The position numbers were made by a program, and so were the translations under genes. Shown here in pieces: positions 3,241 to 32,000 of a DNA stretch of 36,611 nt. The stretch's first letter is position 1, and each line of letters begins with the position of its first letter. The notes below the pieces were generated by a model. The model did not search any database. It was not told the origin of the DNA and was given only the letters and a program-made list of their open reading frames with translations. Origin of the DNA: Monosiga brevicollis MX1 (Eukaryota > Opisthokonta > Choanoflagellata > Craspedida > Salpingoecidae); contig NW_001865064.1 of the NCBI RefSeq assembly GCF_000002865.3, forward strand, positions 62,041-98,651. Direction: 5' to 3'.

Positions 3241-4595
3241 TCAAACGACAATGCCTAACAGGAACAGCGAGTGGGCATTGAGTTTGTTTTTCCACGTGAT
3301 GTCTGCATCGGCCATATGAGTAAGCATGGCGTACCTTTGAGGAAGCAGACGACGGCCTTTTGGGCGTGCAAACGGTTTTCGGCCTGCTGGTAAATAACGC
3401 TCTGTGGGCCATCAATGACCTGTTCCGTGACTTCAATGCCACGATATGCTAAGGAAAAAAAAGAAAAAAAAAAAAGCATAAATGAATCGAGGCGCCCGTG
3501 CGTGAGCAGCGCTCAACTCAAAACAGCAAGGCCAGAATAAAAGGGTCGTGCAATCTCTCGCTCCACCTCCGTTTGCGCCCCTCTCTGTTCGGAACATCAA
3601 TGGAACAAACCGGGCATGTCATGCATAAAGATGGCAGTGGGTTTGGCGTGGGCCATGACGTCCTGCGTGACTTGGTAACCGTCAAACTCTTTGAGGCGGC
3701 GGGCCTTGTCGGCTTCTTGGCCCATGGAGACAAAGGTGTCGGTGTAAACCACGTCGACATCGCGCACGGCTTCTGCGACATCCTCCGTCTCTGTGATGGA
3801 GCCGCCACTGATCTGGGCCAGCGCCTCGGCTTCTGCACGCACGGCCGGGTCCATGGCGTGAGCTGCGGGGGCGGCCACGCGAAAGTGCATGCCGAGGTAG
3901 CCAGCCGCCAAGGCCAGGGAGTGGGTGACGTTGTTGTTGCCATCACCCACAAAAGCCAGCGCCAGGCTGTTGTCAAGACGGCCGTAGTGCTCGTAAATGG
4001 TGAGGACGTCGGCCATGGCCTGGCACGGGTGCTCGCGATCGCACAGCGCATTAATGACGGGGACGTGCGAGTGATCGGCCAGCTCGCGGACCGTGTCGTG
4101 CTTAAAAACACGGGCAATAATTACATCCACCATCCGGGACAGTACGTTGGAAACGTCCTTGATGGGTTCGCGCGTACCCAGACCAATGTTCTCCGGGCCC
4201 AGGTACATGGCATGGCCACCCAGCTGAGTCATGCCGGTTTCAAACGACGTGTGTGTGCGCAGGGATGGCTTTTCAAAAATCATGGCCATCGTATTACCCG
4301 GCAACAACTTGAGCTGCTGGCGCTTGGGCATCTGTTTCAATCGCGCTGCCGACGCGATCACCGACCGCAGCTCCACCGCGTTGAGGTCTGTGATGCGCAA
4401 AAAGTGGCGCAAAGGTGGTGACATGATGAACCGTTCCGGCGATGCAACAGCGTGCAGGCACGGAGAACGTCGTTGCAATGCCTCGTGTTCCTCGGTCTCA
4501 GATACCCAGTGAACGGGCTGCGCTCTACATGCACCCAAAGTCAGCGGCACGGACGCGGGCACGACGTCAGCACGTGAATCAACTCGGCTCGCCAC
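3241..4595 (-). CDS. OTC: Ornithine carbamoyltransferase
   Basis: Catalyses carbamoyl phosphate + ornithine to citrulline (arginine synthesis or urea-cycle step); in eukaryotes it usually acts in the mitochondrial matrix. Exon 1 is 4595-3611 and exon 2 starts at 3448 after a 162-nt intron whose phase-1 junction rebuilds MPAYRGIEV. Visible motifs: carbamoyl-phosphate loop SLRTH (residues 111-115, usual form STRTR), HPCQ (189-192), ornithine-loop DTFVSMG (286-292) and HDMP (325-328) where most OTCs have HCLP. The C terminus follows the family ([20 protein letters not shown]). The end has two readings: unspliced to the TAG at 3257-3255 (392 aa), or an 80-nt intron 3334-3255 with a stop at 3241 (370 aa). 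I prefer the second because it removes a non-family tail. About 57 residues before the MSPPLRHFL start of the core could be a transit peptide. The gene is divergent from the giant gene. Confidence 0.93.
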
Positions 4596-4618: not shown

Positions 4619-5752
4619 AACACATTAAGCAAGCAACTGGACACGAAGAAGCCAACATGTCCCTGTGACTCTTGACATTGTATACGATCCATCTGATCAG
4701 ACAGGGGCAGCCCACTGGCCACCGGGGGAGCGGGCGGGGAGCAGCGCGGCTCCGGGGACTGGCTGCCGTTTCCGTTCCCATGTGCCCACTGACCCAAGTT
4801 GCTGACAATTGGAGTTTGAGGCGAGAAAATGCGGCAAACCTTCGACTTGTTGCAGATGTTAAAGCATACCCTGATTTACTTTATGAAGTTTTCAACAGCG
4901 TTTTGCTTATTTGGGTCTGGAAAGGCGTTTATGCTCCTAAATCCAGACTTTTCGTCGTTTTGTTGAGAACAGTAATGTAAGTTGATGCACATGTCCGCGT
5001 CGCTTTTAACCAAAATGCCGAGTCTGGTTCGTGCATCCAATATCACACTTTCTGAAGAATGTATAATGTTCACAACGTTATTTGATAAAAGTTATTTTAC
5101 GGTTTTCGTAGTCTTGCGCCTCACACAATGTGAGGGTACAATAACCCTCAACGCAACAACACGACACGGCACGACGGGCTCGACGGGTGGACCAGTGGGT
5201 ACGATTTGGGCAGCAGCCAGGTGGCCTTATTGGGCTAACTCGGCGCTTTAAGCAGAGGTTCCACCTGCCAAGATGCCTCGTCCCGATACATCGACAGCAG
5301 CGCACACGGCAGAACACCTGACAAACTGTACCCTGGTCATCCCAATGGAATGGGGAAGAGTGACCCGGCGGCGTCGTTTCCTTGTTGCCTACAATGAACA
5401 TGATGATGTCGACTGCTTGTCGACCTGCCAACTTGAATCGGCCCATGCCTCTTTCAGATACTACAAAAGACGCAAGGGTAGACTCCAATGGCATCCACCC
5501 CTTTTGACTGTTGCTGGTTGTCTGTGTCTGCTGTCGGACTGGTAGAGATCAATCAACCCAAACCATGTCATTGACCAGACGAGCAACGTCACTTGTGGAG
5601 CAGCCAGCCAGCTCAGCGTCTGTTGACGTTCTGCAAGCAAAGTGTTTGCGCTACCTATGCTCGAGAACCTGGCTGCTTGCTGCTGGTTGCTCTCAAGCTC
5701 AACACACAAGCATACAAGCAAAAAACACTCTTCCATCATAAGGTTGGCTCTA

Positions 5753-5868
5753 TGGAAGCACATACAAGCACTTGGTGCTTTCATGGAAGCACATACACAT
5801 ACAAGCACTTGGTGCTTTTATGGAAGCACATACAAGCACTTGGTGCCTTTGTGGAAGCACATACAAGC
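5753..5868. repeat. 31-bp tandem repeat, three to four copies, each with a hairpin
   Basis: The unit begins TGGAAGCACATACAAGCAC and continues TTGGTGCTTT. Copies start at 5753, 5784, 5821 and 5852; the second carries an extra 6 bp (a duplicated CATACA) and the last is partial. Inside each full copy AAGCAC-TTG-GTGCTT is a perfect 6-bp stem with a 3-nt loop. The array ends about 230 bp upstream of the giant gene's start codon. Confidence 0.85.
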
Positions 5869-6097: not shown

Positions 6098-9000
6098 ATG
6101 AGCTTTTGGTCTGCTTTGAACAAGTAAGTCAAGTTGATGCTAACCCCTGCCATTGCCCTTCAAGTCATCTCATGCGCGTACCCGACTGGCTGCAATGGAT
6201 GTGATAGACTTGAAACGTCTGACCTGCCTCCGCCACCGGATGAAACTACTGAAGCTGCGGAAACAGATGAAGGATGGGATGCTGTCACAATTGTCAGCGC
6301 AGGTACGTCGGGTTCCCTGAAAGAGCCTTGATTATCGTCATCTTGCCACACCTCACTCAATTTGTGCACGTAGTGTCGGGCGAAGAACCAACACTCGAGG
6401 TCTCGGCTGTTTCCAAGATCAAGGAGAAGGCTCAAGCCCGCTCGACCAACGAAGAAGAGCGTCGTCCACCGGGCGAGCATCCTCCTCCAACAGTGCCTCC
6501 TGTTCCCCGTGCTGTCTCTCGTGCAGCCTCGAAGGTGGAAGAGACCGTCAAGACTGCGCGTCAAGTGGACGCCAGTGAGCTGGCGCGCGAGGCTCAAAAG
6601 CGGATCGAGCTTCTTGAGGCTAATCTTGTTGAGTACAACCTGGTGGGCTCGGACGCCAACACTGGAGTAATCTTCCTCGCTCCAACGAGCTCTGGCAAGA
6701 CGACCACGCTGCTCTGGCTTGAAGGCCATCCGATTGAAGAGCGTGCTGTTCCCGGCAAAGAACACTTGCGCCATCTTAACGTGGCCTGCAGCGCCCCCGA
6801 CGAAGTGCAGGGGCTAGTGGGGGACGGTATATCGGCCAGGACCATCACGCCGCGCTATCTCGCGAGGGATCGCATCGTGTACGTTGACCCTGCTGGGTTC
6901 AACGACACCCGCTCGGTCATCCTCGCCATGATCAACAGCATGGGTTTGCGCCACCTCCTGGACAAGATGCCCCGCAAGCGAATCGTCCTGCTCGTCAACT
7001 TCCGGGGTCTCTCCCGCCTTGATGCCGTCTCTAGCATGCTGCAGAGCTTGCAACGGCTTTGCCCCGACTTTGAGGCTCTGGCTCCGGGAATCCTCTTTCT
7101 GTACTCCCGCCTGGACGGGAATACGAGCAAAGAGGTCATCGTCGAGCTTCTCAACGGCTACAAGGCGCGCCAGGGCATTCGCGAAGTACCCTACTACACC
7201 AAGACGCTGGACCTGATGATCCACCAACTCGAGCGCCACGAGGACACTGTCCTCCTCTACCCACACCTTGATGCCCCCGATGGCGTGCGCAATATCATTG
7301 CTCGTGGCATTCGCGATTGCTTGCCGTTTCATCATATGGGGTCACCCCTTGAGGATGGCGAGATTGCCATGATACAGCAGGCCATTGGCAAGGAACTGGG
7401 TAGCTTGCATACCTACCTCAGCAGTGAACAGCCCAGCGTTTATCGCCAGGGCATCAAACACCTGACCACGATTCGCACGCTTGCTCAGCTCATTAATGAC
7501 GAGGCCATCTCTGAGATGTATCACCAAGCTCTCGATCTCCTGGGCAAGGTCATTCAAACGCATGCTGTGAGCTTTGCGCGCGCTCTGAAATCTGGGCAAT
7601 TTGAGGTAGCCGCCCGTCACGACAAGACCCTTCAAGCTCTGGAAGGCTACAACCAAGAGTTGCAACAGACCACTGCCATCTCTCGAAACCTTTGGTCGCG
7701 TGTGCAGCAAGCCTGCGACCTTGTCGACAGTGCGCAAGCCTTTGAATCTCTCGCCGATTTGCAGCGAGCGCTTCGAGCGGCGGCTGCAGCGGTGGGCATG
7801 CGCTTGGCCAAGGACGTATCAGACGCTAACGAGCAAGAGGCGTTTGCCGAGTGCGCGCTGCCGGCCGTGGCCACGCTGTGTCAGTTTGACCAACACCTTG
7901 CTTCTTCCTGCTCGGGACGCTTGCTATGGAATCCAATTGCCGAATCGCTGCTGAACGAGGCAGTGCAAGCTTCAGCGGCCATCACCGCCGTGGTCCAGGC
8001 CCTGAACAGCGCTATCACCGTCCCTTCTTCGCGCAATGATCTCTCTGTTGACATGTGGCAGGCGCTGCGCTCTGCTCTGGGCCTGCACCAGCGCGCACAA
8101 GCGTACAGCGGATATGTGCTTTTGGACCAGCTGCGCACTTGCTATGATCAGGACAAGACCTTGCTTCTCGAAGCTGCCAGCCAGCTCTGTGCAACCATCA
8201 CAACCATCCACAAGCTGATGGCCGAGTATCACGCAGAAGACCTTATGCTGGAGCGCTTGGCTAGTCTCATGGCCTTGCTTCGGCACGTGGAAACGGTAGC
8301 CGGGCCCGAGTGCGTGGCCCCTGGCTCGCGCCATGCCGACATGCAAAGTGCTTTTGCTCGCGTTGTCCGCGATCGCTTGAAGAAACCCATCGCCCACGCC
8401 GTCACCGACGAGCAGCCAGCGCTTGCCGCATCTGCCCTCGGGCAGCTACTTGCCCTCCTCGAACCCTTTGGAGCAGACGAGGTGGTGCAAGATACTCAAC
8501 GCGATGCCCTCCTACTCCTCAATCGCCTGGCCAACCAGCAGCGCCACTGCCAAGAGACCCTGCGCACGATACTCGCCCACGAGGGCTCTGCACGGGATTT
8601 TGAGGCCTTAGTCAAGGCGATAAAAGCGCTCACCGCGTGCCAAGTTCTTGACAAGATTATCGAGGATGCCCGCTGGTTGCCTGCAGATGCCGGCTCACCA
8701 GACGCCCAAGCGCAAGATCAAGGGCAAGAACAGGGTGCTTTGTCAGCCAAAGTGACTTGGCAAACCAGCGCCCCGCTTATTAAGCGCACTATCCAAGAGC
8801 TGCACGACTTTCTTGGCTCCTTGTGCAAGGACCTTGCATCCGCGCTCAACACGCGAGCCACTCCCGGAGATCGCGTTTTGACAAGCCTGCAAGCCTTCCA
8901 CCTCGTTCAGAGCCTGCTCGACGATGAGATTGTGCAAACCCTGGTGGCGCAAGTCGCTGCTACCATCACGCAAGCCTGCGACCATCTTGCTTGTTCCAGC

Positions 9001-12000
9001 GTTGAGAGCATGAGTGGTCACACCCGGGATGGCCACTTGAAGTGGTTAACGCAGACGGCCGAGTTTGTCGGTGATCTCGACGCTACCTATCCGCTCTTGC
9101 GCAGCCCAGAATGGGCTTCGGTTCAGGCTAGCCTCAAAGATCAAAATGAGCGCATGCTCGCCGACACCAAGGCTTGGGGGGACCAACTGGTTGCTACAGT
9201 GCGTGACACAGTTTCCGAGGATCGCCTGGGCGAAACAGCATCTGAGCTCGATGCGCTGCACGAGTTGGGCCATGCGCAGGATCTGCAGGTCCAAGGCATT
9301 GCAGCCCCCTTGTATGAACAAGCATTGGAGGTTGTGCGTCGTCGTTTGAAAGAGCTTTACGAGGAGTTTAATCTCTCTATCAGCGCGACAGATCTGGGCG
9401 TCTCAGTGAAAGCCAAAAAAGTTCTCATTGATGCCATAGTGTTGCATCCCCATCTCCCCGAGGCCAATCTTATTACCAAGTCCATTGAAGAAAAAGACCA
9501 AGCCATGATGAATGCCCTCCGGGAGCAATTTGACACCGACCTTCTTGCCAACAACTTCCACGCAATCCATGATGTTCTTACGGGTCTGTTACAGACTCAA
9601 GACGCCCCAGAATGGCGCGCCGCCTACCGAGGGCTCAAGCGCACTGCTATTCTCAAGATGCAGCCAGAGTTGAATCAGCGTGTGGAGGAAATGCAACGCG
9701 CGGCGCGTGGCATTCGTGCCACCCATGCCAGTACTCAGATTGGCGATTTGCTACAAAGGCTCGATCAGCAGGACGCCTGGTTTGTCAAGGCGCGTGTCCT
9801 GGATGCTGCCCTTCCTGAGCTGCGTCTAGCCGAGGCAGAAAAGCAGTTTTCAATCATTGTCAAGAACATCTACCACCGCTTGTGCAGCCGACTCTGGGCA
9901 GCTATGAAAAAGTACCATTTCAATACAGCTGAGACTCTCTACGGTCACCTCCAAGCGTGGCAATGCGTACACCGCGCTGACCTGGACTCTTCCGATTTCC
10001 TTAACGATACATCCATGGCTGACACTTCCGTTGCCGGTGAGGCGCCGATGAGCGATAGTGCCAGCGAGGCCCCCAGCGATGTTTTCGGCGCCCCTAGCAA
10101 GTTGACGGCCATTGAACGCTACGCCGCCGAACTAGATACACAGGTGACCAATCATGTCACGTCTCTTTTGAAGGAGCGGCGTGGTGTGGAACTCGCTCGT
10201 GTGCTACGCAGCCTGAAGTCAGTGTACGATGGGGTGTCAGAGCAGGGTCTGTTCACAACGGATCTGGTTGGGCTGGTGGATCAAGTCTTCCACCAGGTGC
10301 ATCGCGAGGCACAAGCCGAGCTTTCGGGCATGCAGCGCACCCTGTACCGACAAGGAGGTCCTGCGGCAGCCCGCGAGCAGCTGGCCGCGTTCGACGAGTT
10401 ATTTCGACCGCTGGAAACGCAACGTCTGCCGCCCTTTGAGAATGACGAGTCGCAGATTTGTCAGCTGCACAGAGCAGTACTGACAGAAGTCCGCGATACC
10501 GAGGAATATTTCACCTTGCCCGCGCTTTCACCTGAGGTAGCAGATGAAATTCTTGCCATGCTGGCTCAGGGTCGAGCGGGGAACATGGGCAGAGTACTTG
10601 ATTCGGTCAAGGCCCTCTGTAAGAGGGCGGTGGCTGATTTGCAGGGAAATTGCTACGCCAATGAATTGGGCCTTGGTCTGACTGACATTGTCGTGGACCG
10701 CTTCTTGGGGCTTGCCAAGCTTGGGACCGAACTCAAGCGTCCCGACATTGCTTTGGCATCACAACACGTCAATGCCATGCTGGGCAGCAGCGTCACCGAA
10801 GGCTTTCGAGCCGTCAACAAATGGCTGCGCTCAGATCTTCAAACAGTCCATAATATGTTGAAGGCTTTTAATGTGGACCAAGCGCGAGAGGCCCTCTCGG
10901 GCCTGACGCAAAGCGTCAATCGCCTCTCTGCTACAGGCCTTCCAGCCGAGTCGCTGGATTTCCTCAAGATGCTTCAGGACACTCTCGAGTCGTTTACGGT
11001 CAATGTCAAGTATGGCACCGATCCGGTGGATCGACTCGACTTGGCTGGCTTCATTGCCGATAGCTTTTCAGCCGAGACCTTGGCGGCTCGCATCGACCAA
11101 TTGGCCATGGTCACCTCGGCACAGCACTCGAGCAAGAGCGCACCCGTGTTTGGCAGCCAGGACGTCTTCAATCCCGGACAAGCCCTGAATAAAGTCCTTG
11201 TGCATTGGCAGGGTCTACTGCGGCAGGCTACCACAGTTGTAGAGGAGTGCATTGCTGGCTGTCAGGATGTTAGCATCCTTGCGGCACACTACGCGGCCGT
11301 GGCCAAGCTGGCACAACGACAGCCTGCCGAGCTGAACGACGACGTAGCCAAGACACTGCACCACTTGAATGACCGCCTCGCGGCCTTTGCGCGTTCGGCC
11401 GGGGCTCGCGTTCAAGCCCGGGTCGAGGGAAAGCACTGGCACGAGCTAAACGAGAACCTTTCGTTCACTTATCAGGTCGAACGTGCCCTCGCCACTTTGG
11501 CACAGGCCCAGCTCCCCGCGCTGACCACACCCCTTGCAGATTCGCAGGAGCAAGCACTCCTTTCGCGGGTCCAAGCCGAGGACTATGTGGGCAACGACAC
11601 ACTCGACGAACTCGCACGCTGTTTGGGGCGCCTTCAAGAGCTGTCCTCCAACTGTCTCGCAGAACGAGTCAAGACTGAGGTCAAATCGCGCATCAAGGCT
11701 CGACTAGACGGTCTGAAGGGCCAGGGGAGCACTGTCGACTTGGACCTGGCCGACTGCTTGTCCGACGTTGGCGAGTATGGCGAGGAGGTCAAGCAATCTT
11801 ACAACCAGTTTGCGGAGGCATTGGTTCGCCAGCGAAAGGCAGCAACCAAGACCATGACGATTGACAAGGCCTTGGCCGATATGCAAGCGGGGCCTCACGC
11901 CATCTCTGCCGCACATGCCGATCGCCTGCGAGCTGCCTATGACAGCTACCGTCGTGAGTTTGAAACACACATTGCAAAATCAACTTCGGCCATTCCGGCC

Positions 12001-14514
12001 CTCGTGGATGCCGTTCGTCAAAAGTGCGACAAAGTGGCCCACCGACCCAACGCCCTGTTGACGGAGTTGCCGGTCATCCTCGCTGTGCTCGCAGCGATTT
12101 GGTCCCTGGGCAGCCGCAAAGCCATGGCTAAAGCCTCGCAAGCGGATCGCGGGATTTACAAGGAACTGCACACGATTCAGGTGTTGGCACTCTTTGAGCT
12201 GCTGGGCTTGTGCGACGCCAAGGTTGGCTTGCGGCGCGTGGCCTCTTGGGTCAAGTCCTTTGTCCCCTTTGGTGCCCACGACAAGCTCAGTGGAGCCTTC
12301 GTGCAGATACAAACAGGCGGGGGCAAGAGCATTTTACTCGGGTTTGCCAGCACGCTCTACGCCCTTCTGGGGTTTGAAGTGTCCTGCGCCTGCTTTAGCA
12401 ACATTCTCAGCTCGCGCGACTACAACGACTTTAAAGACTTTTTTGATGTGGTTCAAGTGGCAGGACTTGTCAAGTATGGCCCCTTGAGCGAGTTGGCCCG
12501 AGCCGAACTGAACGTCAACGGAGATATCCGCCAGGCCCTGCAGACGCTCGTGATCGACGGCCGCCTTTCGGATCCAACGGTGCGGCCGGGTGCCCTGCCC
12601 AAAGTCCTGCTGGTCGACGAGGTCGACACGTTGCTGTCAAATGTTTTCCTGACCGAGCCATATACTCCCGGCACGCTGGTGCACGATGACAGCTTTTTGG
12701 AGCTCCTGCGCGCCGTGTGGCAGGACCAGTCGCTCACCTTGGCGCAGATCCAGGCGCTGCCCAGCGCGCAAAAACTGCTGCAAACCTATGCTCACACCGA
12801 GAAGTTGGTGCTCGCTGCACTGGAGAACGTCGCGTTGGCCCGAGCAGCATTTGAGCGTCGCGAGCACCCATATGAAGTGCAGGAAGGCCTCATCGCGTAT
12901 AAGCGTGAGGGCCTGGACGAGCCCAGCTCTGATATTTCCTACGGCTACGAGACGCAGTTTGCCTACTTGGCCGAAGAAGCGCGCGGCGCAGTGATGCCTG
13001 AGGTGTGCAGGCAGCACGTGGGGCTTTTCTGCTCGGGCGGCCGCTTCAGCTTTGTCAAGTTGATTCAGAAATTTGACCTCATTAGCGGCGTCACCGGGAC
13101 CATACCCGACGACCTGGCGCTCCTGCGCACCAAGTTTGGGGTTGGGCGGTGTTCGTACATGCCAAGCATGTATGGCAAGATCAACTTTCAGCGCGACCCA
13201 GTGCAGCTGACCAGCAACAAAGCGCAGCAGCACCAGGCGATTGCAGGAGAGACCTTTGAGCGGGCCCAAGGGCGGGCAGTTATTGTCTTCTTTCAGACCA
13301 CGGCCGATCTCGAGGCCTTTCGAGCTTCGCCCGAGTTTACTGCCAAGCTTGGAGGACGGCCCATAAACATCATCACCGTGGGGTCGCCCGACATTCCTCA
13401 TCGCATCAAGCAAGCCACGCGAAAGGACATGGTGACGCTGGCCACGGCACCCTTTGGTCGAGGCTCTGATTTCACCGTTCTGAATCGCGACATTGAAAAG
13501 AACGGGGGCATTCACGTGATTCAGGCCTTTCTCTCTGTCGAGGTGACTGAGCAAATCCAGATTGAGGGCCGGACCGCTCGCGAGAGCAATAGCGGCAGTT
13601 ACCGCCTCGTGCTCTGCCTGGAAGACGTGCAAGCGCTGCTGGGCGAGCACTTCCCGTCGGACATTCATGAGGGTGCCTTTGCCGAACTGCCCCCGACGCT
13701 GGATGCAGCCCGGCGCACCTTGCATGCGGAGATGCTTGCGCAGTCTTTTGAGGCACTGGCGGCGTGTGAGGCAGCGCACGACACGTCCCTCAAGCTGGTT
13801 CGAGAGCTCTTCAGCGGCAAAAAGGGCGACCCCCAGAACGCGCTGCGCTACGTGCATGAATATTCGGCCCAGGCAGAGTATGCCGAGGCCGTGGATGTTG
13901 TTGTGGTGGTGGATATTTCGGGTAGCATGGGGCCCCATGTCCCGCAGGCCCAGGCATTCGTGCGCACCATTGCTCAGGAAGGGTTTCACTTGGACCAGGC
14001 TTCGAGTCGGAATCGCCTGGGCATCTTGACGTTTGATGTGCAGGCTCAAGCCATGGGTGGAGAGGACTTTTTGTCCGACGACTGGACCACAGTGCAGCAG
14101 CGCGCCGCGGCCATTGCCACCAAAGGCTACCAAACCTTTTATCTGCCGCCTCTGAAATTGTTGGAGGAGAAGCTGTGCCAGGCCAAGGCCGCTGATCCAA
14201 CTCGCTACGCTTCGACTCGCCGCATTGTACTCTTCCAAACGGACGGCGCCAACATGGACACGGAAAAGTCAAGCGCCATTCGCGCAACCGCAGAGCGGAT
14301 CGTTGACGAGCTGGACACGACGCTCATGGCCGTCTTGACGGGGCCAGACGTGCCCCCAGATAGCGTGGCCTACTTTGTGGGCCGGGCGGGTCAGTTTAAG
14401 ACCATGGACCGCAGCGACTCGGACTTTTTGGCTCAGCTCATCATCACGGTGGACACTTACGACGCACTGGTGCAACGCGCCAGCAACATTGCCAACTGCG
14501 CCACCTCAATGTAG
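6098..14514 (+). CDS. Giant P-loop GTPase-like / helical / SecA-like DEAD motor / VWA protein
   Basis: Exons are 6098-6123, 6208-6302 and 6374-14514, giving 2753 aa. Donors are GTAAGT and GTACGT, acceptors GATAG and CGTAG, with phases 2 and 1 matching. Domains: acidic/Pro-rich start (1-100); P-loop APTSSGKTT (143-151), a DPAG switch motif (212-215) and SRLD (285-288), suggesting a GTPase of the AIG1/septin/dynamin type; about 1600 residues rich in helix and probable coiled coil; a SecA-like motor with QTGGGKS (2020-2026), DEVD (2122-2125), GVTGT (2279-2283), GRGSD (2402-2406) and EGRTAR (2438-2443); and a VWA domain with MIDAS DISGS (2554-2558) and a later QTDGAN. Motif order and spacing match SecA NBD1/NBD2, but the helical scaffold after NBD2 is missing. 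No signal peptide or membrane segment is seen, so it is probably cytosolic. Function unknown: an NTP-driven remodelling or conflict machine is inference. Domain calls are firm for SecA and VWA, moderate for the GTPase. Confidence 0.93.
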
Positions 14515-20203: not shown

Positions 20204-21258
20204 GCGGTCGTCGTGGTTCGTGTTCAAGCGGTGGCATAAGCTTGCCCCCTTATCTCTCTCATCGATGGTCAAGCTCATCGTCAGGACTGTCCGTGTATCG
20301 CATGTCCTCGTTTGCGCCGTGTTGTGAGTAGTGTTGCGCCAGAGTCGCTTTACAAGGGGGTTGGAAATCCCGCTCATTGAACTGACTCCATTTATCAATT
20401 GAGGCCCAGCCGCCACAGCACCTTGATTCCGACAACTCCACATTGCCCACGGTTCAACCTCCCCATGTTATTCTGAAACTCTTCTGCCAGAGACTCCTGC
20501 GTTGGCGTGCATAGTCAACATAAACTTGTGCCTGTTCTACCTACTGCTGCTGTATATCTGCTACTGGTACTGTACCTGCTGCTACTGCTGCTGCACCTGC
20601 TCCTACTGCTACTGTACCTGCTGCTGTACCTGCTGCTTCTGCTACTGTACCTGCTGCTACTGCTGCTGTACCTGCTGCTACTGCTGCTGTACCTGCTGCT
20701 ACTGCTGCTGTACCTGCTGCTACTGCTGCTGTACTTGCTGCTGCTACTGGACCTGCTGCCACTGCTGCTGTACTGTTCCTTCTGCTACTGGTACTGTTCC
20801 TGCTGCTACTGGTACTGTTCCTGCTGCTACTGGTACTGTACCTGCTGCCACTGCTACTGTATCTGCTGCCACTGCTACTGTATCTGCTGCCACTGCTACT
20901 GTATCTGCTGCCACTGCTGCTGTACCTGCTGCTACTGCTGCTGTACTGTTCCTTCTGCTACTGGTACTGTTCCTTCTGCTACTGGTACTGTTCCTGCTGC
21001 TACTGGTACTGTACCTGCTGCCACTGCTACTGTATCTGCTGCCACTGCTACTGTATCTGCTGCCACTGCTACTGTATCTGCTGTCACTGCTGCTGTACCT
21101 GCTACTACTGCTGCTACACCTGCTGTTATCTCTGCTTCACTTTTCGCTATTTCAATCACCCTCTCGGCTTTTAACTGTAAAAGCTCAAGTTTGTTAAAAA
21201 AAAATTCTGAAACTTTCAATCATTTTTAAATAAAATAAAATAAAATAAAAAGAAGGTC
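20204..21258. other. Intergenic region between the PLP gene and the LRR/IQ gene
   Basis: Mostly the tandem repeat at 20555-21120, flanked by about 330 bp of unremarkable sequence on the left and an AT-rich stretch on the right. The right end has AAATAAAATAAAATAAAAT at 21226-21250, ending 8 bp before the start codon of the LRR/IQ gene. No gene is called. Confidence 0.6.
20555..21120. repeat. TGCTGCTACTG(CTG/GTA)CTGTACC tandem repeat
   Basis: About 560 bp of 15- to 21-bp units built from TGCTACTGCTGCTGTACC, TGCTGCTACTGGTACTGTTCC and TGCTGCCACTGCTACTGTATC. Variants come in blocks, and the order 'TTCC x n, ACC, ATC x 3, ACC' occurs twice (about 20775-20930 and 20945-21100), so a higher-order unit of about 165 bp has itself been duplicated. 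Stop codons are absent from most frames on both strands, which yields spurious ORFs (LLLLL, CCTCCYC, VPAATGT, AVAAGT). Confidence 0.9.
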
Positions 21259-29418: not shown

Positions 29419-32000
29419 TTAGTTGTCGTTGGCCCACTTGATGCCCTTCTCGATGGAGGCCTTGAGCTCGGGGATGACCTCGGTGTCGAGCTTGTGCTTC
29501 TCGTAGTCGCTGAGCTCGCCCAGGCCGAGGTTGCGCTCAATGCCGTTGACGCCGAGCTCAATGGGGGTGCTGAAGTACTGGCACTCGGTCACGTCCGACT
29601 CGACCATGGCGCACTCGACAATGCCCTTCTCGCCCTTGAGGGCGCGGATGAGGGAAAAGGCAAACTGGGCACCGGCCCAGGCCATGGAGAGGGTGGCCGA
29701 ACCGGCACCGGCCTTGGCCTGGACAACCTCGGTACCGCCGTTCTGGATGCGGTCCGTGAGGGCATCACGGTCCTCATCGGAGAAGGAGCAAGAGGGCTCG
29801 ACACGGGAGAGCAGGGGAAGGATGGTACCACCGGCGTGGCCGCCAATGACGGGGACGTTGATCGACTGGGGGTCAAAGCCCTTGTTCTGGCCGATAAAGG
29901 TGCGGGCGCGCACAACATCGAGGGTGGTGACACCAAAGAGCTTGCGGGGGTCGTAGACACCGGCCTTCTTCAGGGCCTCGGCGGCAATGGGGACCGTGCT
30001 GTTGACGGGGTTGGAGATGATGGCAATGCAGGCCTCGGGGCAGTACTTGGCGCAGGCCTCGGCCAGCGACTTGACAATCGAGGCGTTGGTGTTGAACAGA
30101 TCGTCACGGGTCATACCGGGCTTGCGGGGCACACCAGCGGGGATGATGACAATCTTCGAGCCAGTCAGCGCGGCGCCGAGCTCCTCGTTGCCGACGTAAC
30201 CGTGGCACTACGAGCAGGAAGGGGGAAGGAAAAAAAAAAAAAGCAATGAGGATGACAGATTTTGAGACGAGAAGCGTACACGAGAAGAGCACAAGTCGTG
30301 TGCCAGGGGGAAGAACAACAAAGGCTTTCGCTCAAGGCGAGAGGGCAAAAGAAAGAAATGACTCGAAAAGGCGACTTCAGTCCAGTGGCACGTGATGCAA
30401 AGGTGTGTACCACCAAAAGGAAAAAAAAAAAAAAAAAAAGAAAGGATCGGGATGAAACAATGGCAGTGGTCAGAGTCGGGAAAGGTGCGAGCCAACCGAG
30501 AGCACGGAAGAAATTCCAAATTAAAAAAGAAAAACGACAGGCCTCGCACACTGCCATCAGACAAAACAACCAGGGCAATGCATGTTTTGTTCTGTTTTGT
30601 TTCTTCCTGGCCAGTGATTGGATTGGCAGGTGCGCGGCGAGAAAAACAACAACCACCTTGATGGCCTCGGGTACGTTCAACCCCAAAGAGCATTATCATC
30701 CCCATGCGCGTGTGTGGGGCGGGCAGTGCTGCACAGACAAAAGGACACAGCCGAAGCAACAACCAGATTCGGGGGCAACTTGTTGAGACTTACGCTGGAG
30801 GGGGTATCAATGTGGCTGAGGTCAGCGGCGACACCCTTGGCATGGGCGAGATCGTAGACGGCCACCTCCGAGACGTGGGCCGGGGGGTGGGAGATCTTCA
30901 TGAGCATGGAGAGGGGCTGGCCAATACCGCCAGCACCACCCAGCACCGCCACCTTCATGTCCTGCGCCATGATGAAAAATTATAAAAATACAAAAGATAG
31001 TGAGTGAGAGAAGAGAGAGAGAGAGAGAGAGTGAGTGAGTGAGTGAGAAAATGAGTGTGTGTGATAGAGAAAGAGAGAGAGAGAGAGATGTAAAACGTGT
31101 AAGAAAATGTTGTGTGACAGCAACACAGTGAAAGCCTGTGTGGTGTGTGTGAAGAGAGAGAAAGAGGGGAAGAAAGAGAGAGAGTGCAAGAAACCTGTCA
31201 TACACAACACACACACTGGCACACCGAGGACCCAACACAAGGGGGAAATTGGTTACCACAGCAGTAGCAGCACACAGACACACACTCATCATGATGATCG
31301 ATTGACCAACACACACACACACACACACACACTGGCCAGCTCAACTCCAAACTCAACACCTTCTTCGCTTTTGGCACGGGGCCCCAGATAAGCAAGGAGA
31401 GAGAGCGCCGACTGAGGAAAGGCCTGTGATGTGTGTACGTGGACGTGTCTGAAGAAAAAAGAAAAAAAAAAGAGGGCACAAGCTCGAACATGTACATGTC
31501 ACAAGTGCCAAAGACTCCGCTGGCTCACAGTACCAGAGGCGCCAGCAAAAAAAAAAAAAGCCTTGACCTCGAGAATGTACAAGACATCACGGCCACAAGC
31601 CACCAACGCTGTGCGTGTGTGTATGTGTGTGGGCGGAAGCGAGGACAACAGAAAGACAAAAAGGACGCTCGCGTTTCAGAGTTCAGAGAGAGACAGCGCC
31701 CAAACGACGCCAAAAGCGGGCACACAGGCCTCAAGCCCCCCAACGACAACAACCCAAGGACAGAACGTCGACCTCCCCCCATCTTCCCTGCCAGAAGACT
31801 CGACAATCACGGCGCTCTGCCAAGGACCACAGAACCCAGTACAGTATCGGGCAGCGCGCACATGTTCACAAGCAAGACGCCACATTCTTTTCGAGTTGAA
31901 GATAACTTAAACTTACGTTGCTGCCAGTGGACATGGCACGGAGCGCCGTCGAGGCAGCCGACTGCGCCGAAGCGCTACGCAGAGCATTGACCATCATCAT
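29419..32000 (-). CDS. MDH2: Malate dehydrogenase, mitochondrial
   Basis: Oxidises malate to oxaloacetate with NAD in the TCA cycle. Exons 32000-31917, 30961-30794 and 30207-29419 give 346 aa (human MDH2 is 338); all junctions are phase 0 with GTAAGT-type donors. Exon 1 encodes a transit peptide rich in Ser, Ala and Arg without acidic residues ([18 protein letters not shown]). Exon 2 carries the NAD loop [10 protein letters not shown] (36-45). Exon 3 has the substrate loop [10 protein letters not shown] with R112 and R118, [11 protein letters not shown]181/R184 in TTLDVVRAR and the catalytic His H208 in [11 protein letters not shown]. All catalytic residues are present. The mitochondrial form is preferred over the peroxisomal one because of the N-terminal presequence and the lack of an SKL-type end (it ends KWANDN). 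Intron 1 is 955 nt and intron 2 is 586 nt, unusually long for this window; both contain simple repeats. Confidence 0.96.
31009..31092. repeat. GAGA/GAGTGAGT block in MDH intron 1
   Basis: A purine-rich microsatellite close to the acceptor of intron 1; on the gene strand it forms a long CT tract upstream of exon 2. A separate CA run at 31308-31332 lies deeper in the same intron. Confidence 0.8.

Follow-up and report, generated by a model that had tools for sequence, protein, structure and literature searches.

A giant Monosiga brevicollis gene joining a GTPase-like domain, a SecA-type motor and a VWA domain

In a stretch of 36,611 nucleotides from the choanoflagellate Monosiga brevicollis MX1 (C31:62041-98651, here called the window), we found a three-exon gene on the + strand (window 6098-14514) that encodes 2,753 residues. 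From the N-terminus onwards these comprise a P-loop GTPase-like domain, a long arm, an ATPase of the SecA type and a C-terminal VWA domain. The reading that we prefer, with slightly less than even confidence, is that this one gene specifies a probably cytosolic protein-remodelling machine in which the SecA-type part would act as an ATP-driven motor, the VWA domain as a dock and the GTPase-like domain as a switch.

Gene structure and modules

In the predicted gene model, exon 1 (6098-6123, +) begins with the start ATG, encodes residues 1-9 and is followed by the donor GTAAGT; exon 2 (6208-6302, +), which is followed by the donor GTACGT, contains an N-terminal GWxxV motif. Both donors are paired with AG acceptors. 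Exon 3 (6374-14514, +, with the stop codon at 14512-14514) carries all the named domains in 2,713 codons. Since 35 two-intron donor/acceptor combinations starting from the ATG at 6098 leave the frame open, the chosen one included, the exact splicing at the 5' end should be taken as a prediction. Exon 3 itself contains 0 stops, for which the chance expectation based on dinucleotide composition is about 1e-33, and the remaining five frames over this exon contain 33 to 113 stops. Support for a single gene also came from relatives: the paralogue C51 holds all the modules in one frame, the paralogue C48 holds the GTPase-like domain and the motor in one frame, and these two modules are likewise joined within one frame in four bacterial genomes. 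The single spliced frame of 2753 codons that had been proposed in an earlier note on this DNA was thus borne out, and all the motifs named there, from the P-loop (here APTSSGKT) to DISGS (within DISGSM), were found in the order given. A search of the window against Rfam returned 0 matches at gathering scores.

The SecA-derived, two-lobed ATPase was delimited by profile and hhalign matches to 12115-13677 (+), and carries on the same strand the motifs QTGGGKS (12310-12330), DEVD (12616-12627), GVTGT (13087-13101), GRGSD (13456-13470) and EGRTAR (13564-13581). When the whole protein was compared with Pfam, SecA_DEAD appeared at 2.4e-4, slightly under its curated cut-off, and NCBIfam gave four SecA families (best 7.8e-8) together with one unrelated match at 0.11. 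A profile of the motor family, built from four copies of the protist and a single bacterial relative, matched nothing but SecA in the PDB at E<=0.01 (24/24 matches; best 4.5e-13 over positions 100-542, covering both lobes). The same family was aligned to E. coli SecA over both lobes by hhalign with a probability of 98.0 and an E-value of 3.1e-13. With a wider family the value was 3.2e-17; as controls, 10 of 10 shuffled SecAs gave 0.17-0.93, and a reversed SecA gave 0.66. These results clearly support the SecA-type motor proposed earlier. The earlier note had also considered that the SecA_DEAD and VWA profiles might score no better than generic helicase hits. This was not borne out: Pfam listed no generic helicase family for the protein at E<=1, a search in which the HMMER filters drop most matches above 0.1, and the motor part of C48 reached 36.3 bits with SecA_DEAD as against 14.7 with DEAD and 17.0 with Helicase_C.

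The VWA domain (13894-14334, +) was recognised by its metal residues and a Pfam match, and its metal motif lies 115 residues past motif VI of the motor. With the whole protein, VWA_2 (1.3e-4) and VWA (1.8e-4) each fell slightly under the cut-off, and the excised C-terminal domain passed that of PF00092 (3.2e-6, 27.9 bits vs 23.8). The motif DISGSM (13912-13929), the threonine in QTFYLPP (14131-14151) and the aspartate in QTDG (14236-14247), all on the + strand, form what we take to be the DxSxS, Thr, Asp pattern of a metal-ion-dependent adhesion site (MIDAS). The set of MIDAS residues is complete in the window protein and is kept in C51 as well. The VWA domain proposed for the C-terminus is thus supported.

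Close to the N-terminus, BLAST and alignments delimited the GTPase-like domain to 6667-7329 (+, residues 139-359). It contains a G1/Walker A motif, APTSSGKT (6679-6702), a switch-I (G2) threonine (6841-6843) that is invariant in five distant members, a G3 motif, DPAGFND (6886-6906), and a G4-like SRLD (7105-7116) that varies among the paralogues, all on the + strand. The domain matched a Legionellales protein in BLAST at 8e-11. We call it GTPase-like by its motifs (G1, switch-I Thr and DxxG) and not by family, since profile searches give no single GTPase family; the window domain matched 0 Pfam families at E<=1, those of AIG1/GIMAP, septin and dynamin included. The earlier call of a GTPase-like P-loop domain therefore stands as far as the conserved motifs go, and its placement in a GTPase family and its specificity for GTP do not.

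To compare distant members, we aligned the window protein with the four bacterial proteins, leaving out the decayed paralogue C44. In P0001 numbering, the invariant residues were G141, K142, T144, T190, D205 and G208 at the GTPase-like site, and G2015, G2017, K2018, S2019, D2115, E2116, D2118, G2272, G2275, T2276, R2396, G2397, D2399, Q2429, R2433 and R2436 in the motor. A machine driven by two nucleotides, as suggested before, is consistent with the invariance of the catalytic residues at both sites in these five members, with GTP as one of the two nucleotides not established.

Between the GTPase-like domain and the motor lies an arm of about 1,500 residues (7510-12057, +). The window protein and C51 are 24-37% identical along most of its length and 53% identical in the last 150-residue bin. 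The arm is low in Pro and Gly, which fits the earlier picture of a helical arm linking the modules, and it is presumably helical. The GWxxV motif occurs upstream as DEGWDAV (6266-6286, +). It was found exactly once per open frame in the window gene, C51, C48 and C44, each time near the start, and 0 times in the four bacterial frames and in the related protist gene C16; in the window gene and C48 a predicted intron follows soon after it. We take the motif to resemble the core of an LC3-interacting region (LIR) that binds Atg8, although the acidic residues upstream are missing in C48.

Relatives in the protist and in bacteria

A search of the host genome (39.5 Mb, 57 contigs) with the motor-VWA part gave nine matches. 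Besides the window gene, two copies are open: C51, with 2,790 codons, all modules and 61% identity over the motor-VWA part, and C48, with 2,564 codons and both GTPase-like domain and motor, for which tblastn detected no VWA domain in the partly masked sequence retrieved downstream. C44 (L018/L019) is 93% identical to C51 across 1,635 codons (nonsynonymous divergence, dN, 0.036; synonymous divergence, dS, 0.091) and has decayed: most of the GTPase-like domain is gone, the gene is split over two frames, and its Walker A reads QTGGGKR. Two fragments, C52 (L022) and C41 (L023), are relics of the family. The window protein and C51 share 46% of residues in the GTPase bin and 53-69% in the part that runs from residue 1801 to the C-terminus, conservation being highest in the GTPase-like domain, motor and VWA domain and lower in the arm. 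The dN of 0.60 and dS of 3.35 for this pair give a ratio that is only indicative, since dS is saturated. C16 (L014/L015, G000:C16:126515-137638) represents a sister subfamily of giant SecA proteins. Its frame of 3,707 codons contains ankyrin repeats (Ank_2, 4.3e-54) and a near-canonical SecA motor (SecA_DEAD, 4.9e-48) that includes the preprotein-crosslinking domain PF01043 (8.1e-11).

The earlier description of the protein as eukaryotic proved too narrow, since bacteria also encode the order GTPase-arm-SecA. When genome contigs from 84,980 species were scanned with two narrow peptide patterns, 85 pattern matches led to one relative, L024, in a Legionellales metagenome-assembled genome. This gene encodes 3,272 aa with the same order of modules: a GTPase-like domain (8e-11 to the window), a motor (6e-74 to the window) and a C-terminal domain with the motif DATGSM. 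Its contig neighbours, which by sequence recognition we take to be bacterial, include dnaE-, recJ- and flavoprotein-like genes. Beside it lies an ankyrin-PARP gene (L024:14817-17150).

With L024 as the seed, searches at the levels of order, class and phylum matched 6/36 genomes at 1e-10, 5/369 at 1e-20 (the seed, G099, G171, G165 and G324) and 1/398, the seed itself, respectively; the counts are lower bounds, as the draws overlap and few candidates were scored per genome. Among three of the order-level matches examined, the seed alone belonged to the GTPase-SecA subfamily, and G033 and G015 were closer to C16; G004, G016 and G035 were left out of this assignment. At the class level, the GTPase-like domain and motor share one frame in the seed, G099, G171 and G165, the frames other than the seed having 3,093, 2,792 and 3,464 codons in the order GTPase-arm-SecA. 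Thus, four bacterial genomes of one class carry such giants, of 2,792–3,464 codons, which is new here. L024, G099 and G165 all have DATGSM in their C-terminal domains, which are similar to each other (e.g. 2e-18). In G324 (L040:1-6556), an ankyrin frame of 910 codons (Ank_2, 7.7e-67) overlaps a SecA-like frame of 1,283 codons by a few codons; both match C16 and form a split counterpart of the protist ankyrin-SecA fusion.

We also looked at what surrounds the bacterial copies. Of 10 flanking frames scanned, seven had Pfam families (aconitase, EAL/GGDEF, hydrolase, DUF2207, TPR, exonuclease and antiporter) and three had none. A frame of 1,096 codons (L038:1678-4965) overlaps the end of the giant frame of G171; it has no Pfam family and resembles none of the compared frames that flank the other bacterial copies. 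Among mobile elements and viruses, two profile scans of the viral collection (61 and 39 pattern matches) gave no relative, tblastn against phages gave weak matches in 4 records covering 9–11% of the query, and 10 and 3 plasmid records were matched, none spanning 80% of the query. The plasmids CP113870.1 and NZ_CP110822.1 (Candidatus Megaera and Bandiella from Euplotes) encode proteins with SecA-like domains weakly similar to the motor. The defence models of PADLOC gave 0 matches for the window protein and one P-loop match at 0.0057 for L024.

In a tree built from the motors, with SecA of E. coli serving as the outgroup, the GTPase-SecA subfamily formed one group (100/100) and so did the protist copies (100/100). 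The bacterial members were grouped in 10% of the bootstraps, and a tree holding them together was not rejected (approximately unbiased test, p-AU 0.29). It should be kept in mind that G015, E. coli SecA and G171 have long end branches and that G015 and C16 are of odd composition. The design shared by a protist and a few bacteria suggests that it moved between them, in either direction.

Possible modes of action

In midasin, an ATP-driven motor is coupled to a VWA domain. The window protein might follow the logic of midasin and of MoxR-VWA chaperone pairs, with a SecA motor replacing the AAA+ motor: the VWA domain would grip a target protein via its metal site, the motor would spend ATP to pull, unfold or dislodge the target held there, and the N-terminal GTPase-like domain, which the arm separates from the motor, could be a switch for assembly or recruitment. 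With regard to the setting, the family looks engaged with intracellular microbes, because it is shared with bacteria, has several copies, and includes copies that are decaying or losing modules. Its distribution and copy turnover, together with the literature, suggest cell-autonomous defence or the handling of intracellular cargo as the likeliest context.

A number of observations weigh against this picture of a remodelling machine. The first concerns the motor: the preprotein clamp of SecA, PF01043, is in no complete Pfam list (window protein, L024 and the C48 motor) and is not among the first 25 of the 31 families listed for five members, and the same lists contain no Pfam family for the helical wing/scaffold or the two-helix finger. 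Strict threading in the manner of SecA is doubtful without the clamp. A diverged version of it is possible, as an insert of 157 residues occupies its place between DEVD and GVTGT (180 residues in E. coli SecA). Of the threading or remodelling motor envisaged in the earlier note, the SecA-type engine thus holds, and threading is uncertain. The folds of this insert, the arm and the GTPase-like domain are unproven. The GTPase-like domain itself has no Pfam family match in the window protein at E<=1, and its G4, where TRAFAC-type GTPases have [NT]KxD for guanine specificity, reads SRLD in the window protein, SRLG in C51 and SHLE in C48, the canonical NKYD appearing in the Legionellales member only. 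Weak Pfam matches among seven members were commonest to ABC_tran (5/7), followed by RsgA_GTPase (4/7), MMR_HSR1 and Dynamin_N (3/7 each) and Septin and AIG1 (2/7 each). A profile of these seven sequences matched 347 PDB sequences at E<=1; P-loop proteins of mixed kinds head the list (5.4e-6, 9.1e-6), and the best septin reaches 3.8e-5 over G1-G3. Moreover, since C48 is open without the VWA domain and C44 has lost most of the GTPase-like domain, each end module is dispensable in at least one copy.

The bacterial proteins add to these difficulties. Their C-terminal domains show no significant similarity to the protist VWA domain (best 0.48), Pfam VWA scored 0.01 for L024 and 0.066 for G165 and was absent for G099, and the Legionellales domain has no MIDAS threonine. 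Three of the four bacterial C-termini may provisionally be called VWA-like, their kinship to the protist domain being unproven. In G171 both the motor motifs and the C-terminus are degenerate, and blastp of 14 chosen flanking frames revealed no common neighbour gene beside the bacterial copies. Finally, the antimicrobial role and the cytosolic location were inferred indirectly.

As an alternative, the SecA-type lobes could cycle as a conformational switch in a scaffold that seeds an assembly for immunity or cell death, in the manner of STAND nucleoside triphosphatases (NTPases). The undetected clamp and helical-wing families and the degenerate motor of G171 would agree with this, and scaffolds that combine an NTPase with repeats are frequent in conflict systems (PMC8195603). 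We nevertheless hold it to be a rather unlikely explanation: even very distant members have the same residues in Walker A, DExD and motifs V and VI, as an active motor predicts, and the window protein has no listed death or adaptor domain and no matching defence model.

It is still less likely that the protein originated as a manipulation protein of intracellular bacteria acting in host cells, captured by the protist or the reverse. Four genomes of a single bacterial class carry the gene, and an ankyrin-PARP gene adjoins the Legionellales copy. SecA-like helicase-related domains occur among Amoebophilus effector modules (PMC3482391), and Wolbachia has giant secA genes of eukaryotic type (PMC3639933). 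Against this origin, the protist copies are one diverged and constrained clade, and the bacterial grouping is too weak to give a direction of transfer. That clade and the predicted introns in the window gene and C48 point to a resident gene family in the protist.

A true preprotein translocase, which would move proteins across the membrane of an organelle or phagosome by way of a channel, was put low and appears very unlikely. Several tests found the motor to be SecA-specific, yet the clamp and helical-wing families were undetected, for which reason the protein is not classed as a SecA translocase; in addition, the motor is fused to other domains at both ends, and the sister C16, which retains the clamp, is nearer to SecA. 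A nucleic-acid helicase or remodeller of superfamily 2 (SF2), which could explain the DEAD-like core common to SecA and the weak Helicase_C and DEAD matches of C48, was rejected as highly improbable, as the generic profiles ranked below SecA_DEAD or were unlisted and the PDB matches were all to SecA. That the region is instead divided into at least two genes, or holds a frame fused by chance, is scarcely credible: the gene model was built from sequence and one antisense frame is fairly open too (the one with 33 stops), but the openness of exon 3 and the same order of modules in C51 and, for the GTPase-like domain and motor, in C48 and the four bacterial frames speak strongly against both.

Returning to the remodelling machine, we consider an extended version of it speculative and unlikely to hold in full. 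It would be a GTP-gated, SecA-powered, VWA-docked disassembly machine, a new weapon between host and microbe exchanged between protists and their resident bacteria, which in the protist would be tied to autophagy via GWxxV and would dismantle proteins on intracellular cargo.

Surroundings of the gene and relation to known proteins

Elsewhere in the window lie ordinary neighbours and repeats. Frames for an ornithine/aspartate carbamoyltransferase (window 3597-4592, -) and a lactate/malate dehydrogenase (window 29419-30129, -) were recognised, as were a tandem repeat of 31-37 bp units (window 5751-5868), which ends about 230 bp before the start codon, and a long minisatellite (window 20541-21125) with periods of 21, 42 and 173 bp (scores 453, 627 and 834). 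Matches to the Tyr/Ser-Thr kinase family, 22 of them strong, gave a weak hint of a holozoan host, perhaps a choanoflagellate.

Several known systems resemble the window protein in part. SecA translocases (PF07517, PF21090, PF01043) share with it the two lobes and, in the same order, Walker A, DEVD, GxTGT, GRGTD and GRxxR, whereas the window protein is fused to a GTPase-like domain, an arm and a VWA domain and has 2,753 residues compared with 901. Septin-, IRG-, GIMAP- and dynamin-type GTPases have in common with the window domain G1, the switch-I threonine and a DxPGFxD-like motif; in contrast to them, it has no Pfam family, a variable G4 and a motor fused to it. MoxR-VWA pairs and midasin likewise combine an ATP-driven motor with a VWA domain, which is an analogy only, as their motors are of the AAA+ type and the window protein has a SecA-type motor and an extra GTPase-like domain. 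The MoxR-VWA chaperone-cochaperone pairs provide a precedent for motor plus VWA, and giant actinobacterial toxins with a SecA-like ATPase were reported in 2021 (PMC8195603).

Modules of Amoebophilus effectors, as listed in 2012, include domains of the GIMAP-type GTPase and SecA-like helicase-related kinds (PMC3482391). In 2013, giant secA-domain genes were described from Wolbachia, insects, Tetrahymena, Polysphondylium, Salpingoeca and Amoebophilus, along with their transfer between bacterial and eukaryotic genomes (PMC3639933). These genes of eukaryotic type (Wolbachia wBol1_1091/1092 etc.) are, like the window gene, very long, present in eukaryotes and intracellular bacteria, and subject to horizontal transfer. 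They differ in that 'GTPase', 'VWA', 'P-loop' and 'von Willebrand' occur 0 times in the main text of PMC3639933; the comparison is one of descriptions only, and C16 may be the nearer match. In literature listings that lacked most subscription papers, none of the titles or abstracts set out the architecture as a whole. The statement that the protein has no described function thus holds, with the addition that giant eukaryotic SecA-domain genes have been known since 2013.

SecA is taught as an ATPase dedicated to export in bacteria and plastids, and here its motor is re-used in a giant protein that also has a GTPase-like switch and a VWA head. Provided that the motor is active, the protein would be a VWA-coupled protein remodeller running on a non-AAA+ engine. 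The shared family, in turn, is a concrete case for testing the exchange of machinery between protists and bacteria.

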